Positions 16,444 through 19,080 of a stretch of DNA of 64,000 nt are shown here, piece after piece. The DNA is taken from contig NZ_VLPL01000002.1 in the NCBI RefSeq assembly GCF_007558725.1, positions 496,001 to 560,000 of the forward strand. Reading direction: 5' to 3'. The stretch is from Fluviicola chungangensis (GTDB lineage Bacteria > Bacteroidota > Bacteroidia > Flavobacteriales_D > Crocinitomicaceae). Position numbers and translations under genes: made by a program. The stretch's first letter is position 1; every line of letters begins with the position of its first letter. The notes under the pieces were generated by a model. That model saw only the letters and a program-made list of their open reading frames with translations, was not told the origin of the DNA and did no database searches.

Positions 16444-16632
16444 GGTCCCGGATTTGATCCAAACAACCGTATTTTTACTGAAAATGCATTGCGGAAAACC
16501 ACATTTTTTTGATTTTGTGAAAATTTTAAACCCATTAAAATCAGGGATATGGCAGATTTCGCTGTTTTAGCGGTTTGGAAGTTCAATTTATTCCAGTTAT
16601 AATTGATCCCGTATAACTTAAACTATATTATT

Positions 16633-16959
16633 ATGTCATTTACAGGAAACGAAGGGGGACAAATTACCCTAGCAGAAGGGGCAGCTTTGACAAAGGCATA
16701 TCGTGATAAAAATCCGAATGCTATAAAAGCAAGATTTTTTGGAAGAGCCGGGATTGAACAAATTTTAGCTCAACCCGATTGTAAAGGTTTGCGTTTGTAT
16801 TTTGGTCATGGCGTCGATGGAACCCCTGAATTGGTAATGGTTGGCGCGGACTCCAATGAAAATGACATGCTGGACATAATTTATGATTTTTCAAAACCAT
16901 GTCCTGCTAGTTGTAGCAGTGTCAATTTATTGAACAGTGATCAAGGGAGTTTGAGGTAA
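16633..16959 (+). CDS. Small unknown protein, first gene of a sensory operon
   Basis: The 108-residue protein starts at the ATG 16633 (MSFTGNEGGQITLAEGAAL); an in-frame upstream codon at 16603 gives non-characteristic sequence. It is soluble, with no signal peptide. It contains KARFFGRAGIEQILAQPDC, LRLYFGHGVDGTPELVMVG and a Cys-rich C-terminus PCPASCSSVNLLNS. I recall similar small proteins with a C-P-x-x-C end in other Bacteroidota but know no function for them. It ends 3 bp before a membrane-protein gene, then a histidine kinase and a response regulator follow. A role in the same signalling system is inference. Confidence 0.75.
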   Translation: MSFTGNEGGQITLAEGAALTKAYRDKNPNAIKARFFGRAGIEQILAQPDCKGLRLYFGHGVDGTPELVMVGADSNENDMLDIIYDFSKPCPASCSSVNLLNSDQGSLR

Positions 16960-16962
16960 TCG

Positions 16963-17610
16963 ATGAGTGGCTTGGAGTATCTTGTTATTTCATCCTACTT
17001 TTTTCCAATAGGGATTGGTTTGGCGCTTCTGGTTTGGAAGCGCCTTATTTTTGTTGGAAAGATGTTGTGGTTTTACTTATTATTCACTGTTTGTGTAGAA
17101 ATAGTTAGCGCTACTCTTGCAACTAATGGGATTAACAACCTATGGCTTTATAGGATCTATCTCTATGTTGAATTAGTCTTTCCTAGTCTTTTTTTCTTCA
17201 AACAGTTGTCGAATAGAAATAGCAAGAATATTTTACTATTTGCTTTCTCAACAGCCATTGTATTAACTACTCTTACGAATTTTTTTGACGATTGGCAAAG
17301 CCATGCTTCTGTTCAAACTGGAATTACTTTTGGTTGTATCGCACTTATTATCATCAGTTATTTCATCGAAATGTTTCGTACGGAAAATGTATTTAATCCG
17401 TTTAAAGATATTTATTTTCTTGTTGGCGCAACGTTGCTTTTGGCGCATTCTTGTACTTTGATATATAATTTACTTTATGATTACTTGGTAATAGGATATT
17501 TTGGGGATGAGATGCTCAAAATTCTGAATAAGGGGAATCTAGGGTTGGTTTTACTTTATAATATTTTATATTCATACGCACTATGGATCAGCAGGAAACC
17601 TCAAATTTAG
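16963..17610 (+). CDS. Multi-pass membrane protein in two-component operon
   Basis: A 215-residue, strongly hydrophobic protein with about six or seven predicted helices (for example YFFPIGIGLALLVWKRLIF, MLWFYLLFTVCVEIVSATL, ITFGCIALIIISYFIEMF, LGLVLLYNILYSYALWI). No known domain is recognised. The start follows the previous stop by 3 bp and its end overlaps the histidine kinase start by 28 bp, so translation is probably coupled. It is a candidate for the signal-sensing part, since the kinase has no sensor domain. Confidence 0.78.
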   Translation: MSGLEYLVISSYFFPIGIGLALLVWKRLIFVGKMLWFYLLFTVCVEIVSATLATNGINNLWLYRIYLYVELVFPSLFFFKQLSNRNSKNILLFAFSTAIVLTTLTNFFDDWQSHASVQTGITFGCIALIIISYFIEMFRTENVFNPFKDIYFLVGATLLLAHSCTLIYNLLYDYLVIGYFGDEMLKILNKGNLGLVLLYNILYSYALWISRKPQI

Positions 17611-18377
17611 GACTCTTACTAATTATTGGTACCCTGGCAATGTTCATCATGGCTTTGAGTATCATTGTTTTTGCCGTGCTGTACCAACAGAAAATGCGCC
17701 GCAAAAAGCAGGAAATGATTCAAATGGAGCTGAACTACAAGAATGAAATGGTGCAGGCTACGTTGGATGCCAAGGAACTGGAACAGCGCCGGATCGCCAT
17801 CGAACTGCACGATGATATCGGGTCCTCGCTTACCGCCTTGAAATTGTCATTTGCCCTGCTGCCTATTGATGAAGACGAGCGAAAATTATTGAACGCGGGC
17901 ATCCAGGATACAATCAACAAGGTGCGTAGCCTTTCCAATCGCTTACTTCCTACCATTTTGGAAGAATTAGGACTTGTTCCGGCGGTAAAAAGCCTGGTAA
18001 ATACCCTCGCACAGCAAATCCCTCACGTTCAATTTTCTATAATTGCAGTGAATGACCCGAAACATCCAGCTCAGACAAGAGAAGTGAGCCTGGCGGTTTA
18101 TCGGATCTTGCAGGAATTAATAAACAACATTCTGAAATATGCCGAAGCAACAGCGATCGAAATAGTGCTGGAACAAAATGAAGAAGGTATCCGTATGAGT
18201 GTGAGTGACAACGGGAAGGGATTTATCCCCACCCAGGATGACAAACGAAAATCCCAAAGTTTGGGACTAAAAAATATTGAAAGCAGGAGCCAGCAAATTG
18301 ATGCAAAAATCGAATATCAATTAATGGAACCGGGAACTAAAGTTGTTTTAATATGGCAGGTGAAGGAGGAAATATAA
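17583..18377 (+). CDS. Sensor histidine kinase, HisKA_3/NarX-type
   Basis: A 264-residue kinase: one N-terminal membrane helix (about residues 9-33), a short coiled coil, then the dimerisation/phosphoacceptor helix ELHDDIGSSLTALK with His at about residue 76. The ATP-binding domain shows RILQELINNILKYAEA (N box), SDNGKGF (G1) and SLGLKNIESR (G2). There is no extracellular sensor domain. It overlaps the upstream membrane-protein gene by 28 bp and the downstream response regulator by 25 bp. Confidence 0.93.
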   Translation: MDQQETSNLGLLLIIGTLAMFIMALSIIVFAVLYQQKMRRKKQEMIQMELNYKNEMVQATLDAKELEQRRIAIELHDDIGSSLTALKLSFALLPIDEDERKLLNAGIQDTINKVRSLSNRLLPTILEELGLVPAVKSLVNTLAQQIPHVQFSIIAVNDPKHPAQTREVSLAVYRILQELINNILKYAEATAIEIVLEQNEEGIRMSVSDNGKGFIPTQDDKRKSQSLGLKNIESRSQQIDAKIEYQLMEPGTKVVLIWQVKEEI

Positions 18378-19033
18378 GAATTGCGATTGCAGAGGATCAG
18401 TCGATTTTCAGAAATGGATTAACAAAACTTCTGAACGATATTGATGGATTTGAAGTAGTCCTGGCAGTGGAGAATGGTCAACTGCTTATTGACGGGTTGC
18501 AAACGACACCCATCGATCTGGCATTAATCGATTTTAGAATGCCTGTGAAGAACGGCATTGAAGCCACAAAAGAAATCAGGCAAACATTTCCCAAATTGAA
18601 AGTTTTGCTCTTATCCATGTACGATGATGTGGAATTTGTGGAGCTGGCGATTGAAAATGGGGCAAACGGATATTTATCCAAAGACGATGAAGCGGAAGAG
18701 ATCCAGTTGGCGATCCGGTCAGCGGTGGAAACCGGGTATTATCTGAATGACCGTACTTCCAAAATGTTTATTGCCAAAATGGTCCACTCCGGAAGAATTC
18801 AACCGGTATTCGAAGCAAGCTCAGCCAGTATTTTTAACGAAAATGAATTGGTCATCCTGGAATTGATTTGCAGTGAAATGACTACCCAGGAAATTGCCGA
18901 TAAATTATTTAAGAGCAGGCGTACGATAGAAAGTGCACGGACCCTGATGATGAATAAAGTAGGAGCAAGAAATGTGGTCGGATTGGTTATGTATGCTATT
19001 CAGAACGGAATTGTGAGTCAGAAGACAAAGTAA
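18353..19033 (+). CDS. Response regulator, NarL/LuxR type
   Basis: The receiver domain (about residues 8-125) has the phosphoacceptor Asp at about residue 60 in LALIDFRMPVKNG, an acidic pair in IAEDQS and the Lys in GYLSKDDE. The C-terminal DNA-binding part has the helix-turn-helix TQEIADKLFKSRRTIESARTLMMNKV; the usual invariant T-V-x-x-H is replaced by TIESAR, a common variant in Bacteroidota. It is the last gene of the four-gene operon, followed by a terminator hairpin. Confidence 0.93.
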   Translation: MAGEGGNIRIAIAEDQSIFRNGLTKLLNDIDGFEVVLAVENGQLLIDGLQTTPIDLALIDFRMPVKNGIEATKEIRQTFPKLKVLLLSMYDDVEFVELAIENGANGYLSKDDEAEEIQLAIRSAVETGYYLNDRTSKMFIAKMVHSGRIQPVFEASSASIFNENELVILELICSEMTTQEIADKLFKSRRTIESARTLMMNKVGARNVVGLVMYAIQNGIVSQKTK

Positions 19034-19040
19034 GCGATAC

Positions 19041-19073
19041 AATTATCAAGGATTGAATTTTCCCTTGATAATT
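19041..19073. terminator. Bidirectional terminator hairpin
   Basis: AATTATCAAGG (19041-19051) and CCTTGATAATT (19063-19073) form a perfect 11-bp stem with an 11-nt loop, between the convergent response regulator and methyltransferase stops. Confidence 0.65.
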
Positions 19074-19080
19074 AAATCAT

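Follow-up and report, generated by a model that had tools for sequence, protein, structure and literature searches.

A four-gene operon (SP-MP-HK-RR), in which a small protein and a seven-helix protein precede a histidine kinase and a response regulator, was characterized in the window, that is, the whole stretch of 64,000 nucleotides of Fluviicola chungangensis DNA that was analyzed, and was followed through the phylum. We lean towards reading it as a split seven-transmembrane (7TM) receptor-kinase system, with SP as the partner of the receptor. Two-component signalling itself is known; what is new is that the 7TM receptor-like subunit is a protein of its own and that the partner belongs to an undescribed family. 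SP and MP are two protein families without Pfam models, and the recurrence of the operon links both to two-component signalling. Were MP the receptor, a set of HisKA_3 kinases that are annotated as sensor-less would gain sensors, and the operon would be a case of a bacterial seven-helix receptor signalling to a separate kinase. A preliminary description, made from the sequence alone, knew of no such named system, and no description of the operon was found in the openly licensed literature; the accessible portion of PMC12419801 does not treat it.

SP, MP, HK and RR are co-directional open reading frames (ORFs) of the + strand. The ORF coordinates reproduce the arrangement first described, with a gap of 3 bp between SP and MP and overlaps of 28 bp (MP/HK) and 25 bp (HK/RR). 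The features are as follows (window coordinates):

16467..16503, + strand: upstream element, GTATTTTTAC box and TGCGGAAAACCACA; conserved, candidate operator
16633..16959, + strand: SP, 108 aa, without a signal peptide; family not yet described
16900..16956, + strand: C-terminal tail of SP with C90-P-x-x-C94; conserved, model confidence below that of the core
16963..17610, + strand: MP, 215 aa; seven TM helices predicted, predicted GPCR/rhodopsin-like arrangement
17583..18377, + strand: HK, 264 aa; HisKA_3/HATPase_c kinase with a single N-terminal hydrophobic helix
18353..19033, + strand: RR, 226 aa; NarL-type response regulator, Response_reg and GerE

HK matched the Pfam families HisKA_3 (E 7.7e-6) and HATPase_c (E 2.9e-10), and RR matched Response_reg (E 6e-23) and GerE (E 1.6e-8), all above cut-off; by these domains the pair belongs to the HisKA_3/NarL type of two-component system, as first proposed. 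SP had no Pfam match, MP had a single irrelevant match under the cut-off, and with NCBIfam both gave only matches far under the cut-off. Three details of the preliminary description stood in part. The kinase has no sensor domain, as was said, but does have one N-terminal hydrophobic helix; the C-P-x-x-C motif of SP is present (C90 and C94, spacing Cx3C), but ends 14 residues short of the C-terminus at which it had been placed; and the proposed terminator corresponds to an A+T-rich inverted repeat after RR (about 19040-19075) that was spotted by eye, but was not among the calls of the terminator scan.

Conservation of the gene order far exceeds chance, as judged from synteny counts in several sets of loci, which share genomes. 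Among relatives, SP matches were obtained in 17 of 58 genomes beyond its own (18/59 with its own); the 21 rows comprised the own locus and 20 others, two of them one gene, so that 19 other loci were read with their flanks. MP and HK followed SP in all 19 and RR was found in 18, the contig of the remaining locus (L050) ending there. Within the phylum, a profile built from 18 SPs matched in 44 of 392 genomes, spread over 24 of 179 genera. Forty loci were fetched out of 59 profile matches, none was dropped, and the full set was present in 33. The seven others were a locus that begins at a contig end (L105), loci without RR (L083), MP (L093) or HK (L106), and three with different output proteins (L089, L092 and L101). 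From named contigs 63 loci were taken, and L170 and L185 were dropped (no SP ORF recognized; L170 has MP-HK). All four genes were found by profile in 44 of the remaining 61, or in 47 if three unmatched multi-helix proteins of 207-213 aa at the place of MP are counted (L149, L166 and L167); four of the 17 loci short by profile lie at contig ends (L150, L152, L153 and L162). L034 and L123 are one contig, the kinase of which was read in two pieces and scored as present. The nearest named contigs were those of Flavobacteriales, Fluviicola and Crocinitomicaceae MAGs. Tandem forms were also seen, as SP-MP-SP-MP (L083 and L095) or with two or three MPs (L092, L094, L097 and L122).

Several further observations were made on these loci. 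L138 and L153, MAG contigs with Ignavibacteriales and Calditrichota in their titles (binning as deposited), carry SP-MP pairs, and PAS-type partners there replace the short kinase. The record CP034120.1 (L135), titled Glaciecola amylolytica, carries the operon with flanks of the window's genus; its title looks wrong because the coordinates match those of G003, a genome of the same genus as the window. Two or three divergent genes for proteins of about 185 aa lie upstream of SP in L104, L105, L118, L119, L120 and L184; those read in L105 and L119 start with MS(T/Y)EPFIGEIKIFGF and are presumably phage-tail-collar-like. A plasmid-borne origin was rejected, SP having no match in 72,556 plasmid records.

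The operon was also approached from MP. Within the class, a profile from 52 MPs matched in 71 of 197 genomes, spread over 49 of 119 genera; the weakest of these matches look spurious. Forty loci (20 of high rank and 20 mostly lower) were picked from more than 100 matches, with those fetched earlier or at contig edges omitted; L232, in which MP was not called, was dropped. A HisKA_3-type kinase adjoins MP in all 39 remaining loci, followed by RR in 36. Directly upstream of MP stand an SP-profile match (21 loci), another co-directional gene (16), a contig end (1) or a gene on the opposite strand (1); the SP share is biased because the MP profile was derived from SP-adjacent MPs, while the HK share is unselected. 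Over all sets there were 152 distinct MPs, and HK was directly next to 131 of them. Of the upstream proteins that the SP profile did not match (17 distinct ones), 9 have CPxxC within the last 60 aa, as against 1 of 1548 other genes, and 8 reached an hhalign probability above 60 with that profile (below 1 in 17/17 for shuffled versions); it appears, then, that many of the variable genes in this position are diverged relatives of SP. The preliminary description had proposed such a co-occurrence search in Bacteroidota, and would have put the association down to chance if SP and MP lay mostly apart from HisKA_3 kinases. Both proteins were found beside such a kinase in most loci, and MP-HK-RR stood together in most loci of the SP- and MP-anchored searches alike.

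The model of MP (mean pLDDT 93.6) has seven long helices, in line with the six or seven first counted, and the distribution of Lys and Arg over 149 MPs predicts an N-terminus outside and a C-terminus inside. Nearly all of the 50 structural neighbours listed are GPCRs, microbial rhodopsins or LYCHOS (VIA Z 11.0-12.9, 187-210 aligned residues), and 822 of 997 chains had a Z of at least 8. The arrangement of MP is predicted to be GPCR/rhodopsin-like; homology is not claimed, because the Z of up to 12.9 (rmsd 4.0, 195 aligned) is of the size that helical bundles reach without kinship (11-13), and Foldseek E was 0.27 or worse. Conserved polar positions include E46, N58, N59, H/R64, E70, Y161 and N200 (window numbering; the consensus may differ). 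A retinal protein was rejected, as the helix 7 lysine expected of a microbial rhodopsin is found at positions 188-207 in a fraction of at most 0.05 of 149 MPs. The MP profile gave one match among PDB sequences (E 0.42), and a MerC match in 1 of 52 MPs (E 3.7e-4) was taken as chance.

The operon can also be compared with LiaFSR and VraTSR, which likewise combine in one operon a membrane protein, a HisKA_3-type kinase and a NarL-type regulator. On that model MP would be an accessory regulator keeping an intramembrane-sensing kinase inactive unless the envelope is stressed, and SP would either modulate the system or itself be a product of that regulon. The kinases of those systems have two TM helices and a short loop, in contrast to the one N-terminal hydrophobic helix of HK, and the SP gene is extra here. 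No match to the LiaF/VraT family was found by Pfam in the MP of the window or among 52 MPs, the seven helices with their conserved polar residues suggest a binding bundle, and an SP-like/7TM fusion (below) exists. The layout is nevertheless alike, and by the accessible text of the sources LiaF inhibits LiaRS (PMC7191749) and VraT is required for full VraTSR activity (PMC9380581); overall we regard this explanation as unlikely.

The model of SP (mean pLDDT 86) has two helices and three strands, with a folded core and a less certain tail. No convincing fold match was obtained (Foldseek best E 0.35; VIA best Z 3.0, rmsd 3.9, 51 aligned), and the SP profile gave three matches among PDB sequences, at E 0.46 or worse. 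Over 120 SPs the most conserved positions by weight were R54 (99%), Y56 (98%), P91 (97%), D78 (96%), C90 (91%) and C94 (86%). Both cysteines are present in 104 of these proteins, the first alone in 7 and neither in 9, some of the losses being due to alignment gaps. The redox role first considered for SP gains from how common CPxxC is, but is weakened by the 16 of 120 proteins that are without one or both cysteines; for a thioredoxin-type protein the Cx3C spacing counts against it too.

By simple rules, an N-terminal hydrophobic or lipobox segment was called in 16 of 140 upstream proteins, and 124 were without a hydrophobic one; when the calls were checked by eye, those in L042 and L223 looked over-extended and the lipoprotein-like L228 and L240 had been missed. 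These segments suggest that some SP relatives are lipoproteins or membrane-anchored, a form that the preliminary description did not foresee. Signal-less and signal-bearing SP-like proteins occur together in the operons L119 and L275. In L271, a 516-aa protein joins a signal peptide (recognized by eye) and an SP-like sequence ending in CPPHC to a 7TM region (profile 305-508, E 4e-10), and separate HK and RR genes follow. No ATG, GTG or TTG lies in frame at the junction, and the related L275 encodes the SP-like and 7TM parts as separate genes. The order to which G480 belongs (65 genomes) gave no more fusions among its MP matches; in the class (395 genomes) matches were few, and no fusion free of internal stops was among them. 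That SP-like domains act on the 7TM protein is best supported by this single fusion, which places the domain outside the cytoplasm. The signal-less SP of the window sits uneasily with the fused and lipoprotein forms elsewhere; this, and the fact that just one fusion was seen, count against the split-receptor reading. The SP module may be able to act from either face of the membrane.

The four genes do not co-vary equally. In 90 complete sets, distances were correlated for MP-HK (rho 0.41), MP-RR (0.49) and HK-RR (0.63), with shuffled maxima of 0.10, 0.11 and 0.16, respectively. SP-MP gave a rho of 0.185 against a shuffled maximum of 0.16, and SP-HK (0.01) and SP-RR (0.06) were within the shuffles; nearest neighbours agreed in 34-54 of the 90 sets for each gene pair. 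The low co-variation of SP marks it as the less tightly bound member, which is consistent with units without SP and counts against a fixed four-part machine; it also lowers our confidence in the split-receptor reading. From these alignments SP may be reassorted or peripheral.

A different role for SP, as a cytosolic regulator (a metal, redox or small-molecule sensor) that acts on HK while MP is a mere scaffold, would suit the signal-less SP of the window, the many upstream proteins without a hydrophobic segment by the same simple rules, and the common CPxxC. It is improbable in view of the signal-bearing and fused versions, the missing cysteines (partly alignment gap) and the fact that the weakest co-variation of SP is with HK. 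Pheromone precursors change fast, and SP as the precursor of a secreted signal peptide sensed by MP in the manner of quorum sensing is very improbable: the small size of the first gene, its conserved C-terminal end, and signal or lipobox sequences in some relatives would fit, but mean pairwise identity over the 90 sets is higher for SP (34.5%) than for MP (17.9%), and the SP model has a folded core.

An N-terminal hydrophobic 19-mer is present in 130 of the 131 distinct HKs directly after an MP. In distant lineages the SP-MP pair is kept and the output behind it differs, being PAS-HisKA_3 (L083), PAS-HisKA-HATPase-REC (L089 and L153), PAS with weak HisKA and HATPase (L101) or, in L138, a PAS protein that lacks a kinase domain. 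A hydrophobic helix still precedes all of these swapped modules, as expected if the helix is the coupling part. The earlier proposal of MP as sensor and SP as accessory subunit fits these swaps and the one fusion; its redox part is weak, and the GPCR-like arrangement was not anticipated. A defence system was rejected, PADLOC giving only two weak matches, both to RR.

In the split-receptor reading, MP would be the receptor, its seven-helix bundle having the N-terminus outside and conserved polar residues in the helices, and HK the output subunit, held by one TM helix next to the bundle. We infer that the two form a complex and that changes in the bundle would pass through the TM helix of HK to the HisKA_3 dimerization domain and from there to RR, which would act on DNA, perhaps at the operon's own promoter too. 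Proteins of the SP family would serve as the partner module of the receptor, extracytoplasmic where signal-bearing or fused to 7TM; the signal-less SP would act from the cytosol or be exported by a route not seen here, and its conserved CPxxC tail may contact the MP bundle.

Such an arrangement would work like a sensory rhodopsin, a separate 7TM receptor that signals via the TM helices of its transducer, with the differences that helix 7 of MP is poor in lysine and that the partner is a histidine kinase. In BtsS/LytS-type kinases a 7TM ligand receptor likewise serves a two-component system, but receptor and kinase are one protein, whereas MP and HK are separate. PF07695, which we take to be the Pfam number of 7TMR-DISM, has no match in 52 MPs at E <=0.01. 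The likeness to 7TMR-DISM proteins lies in the idea of a 7TM receptor with an extracytoplasmic domain that feeds intracellular signalling modules, as set out in the accessible part of PMC1592074. Here, in contrast, the kinase is a separate gene rather than fused to the 7TM part, and the SP-like domain is fused to 7TM in L271 only, being a separate gene in the window and usually elsewhere.

A wider conjecture, tentative and to our minds rather doubtful, is that Bacteroidota hold a large unrecognized class of split, GPCR-shaped receptor kinases. These would pair a fast-changing 7TM receptor with a better-conserved SP, the CPxxC tail capping or entering the bundle in the manner of a tethered ligand; kinase outputs, coupled through one TM helix, would be swappable, and SP would lie on either side of the membrane according to lineage.

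The own genome holds related units. C13 (L236) encodes a 266-aa protein with CPPGC near its end, followed by MP, HK and RR, and C14 (L268) has two MP-like genes, HK and RR without SP. In L268 (3243-7914) RR is followed by what we take to be a secreted-esterase-like gene and by a third multi-helix protein of similar look. Nine kinases of the genome match HK at E <=0.001, and three of them are in such units (neighbourhoods read for 4/9); the upstream side of the fourth, C16, is missing because the contig ends there.

The upstream element (16467-16503) is kept in place in 12 aligned loci, with an altered form in the three most distant. Its second half, TGCGGNWWACCRCA, occurs exactly at 7 sites of the own genome, as against 0 for the reversed pattern, and 5 of the 7, the window site among them, have a GTAT/ATAC-type box no more than about 30 bases away. 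The element could be either an operator or one copy of a dispersed repeat. Several TGCGGAAAACCACA sites (L286-L292) lie no more than about 200 bases from the start of a gene, and that of L286 adjoins a presumably REP-transposase-like gene.
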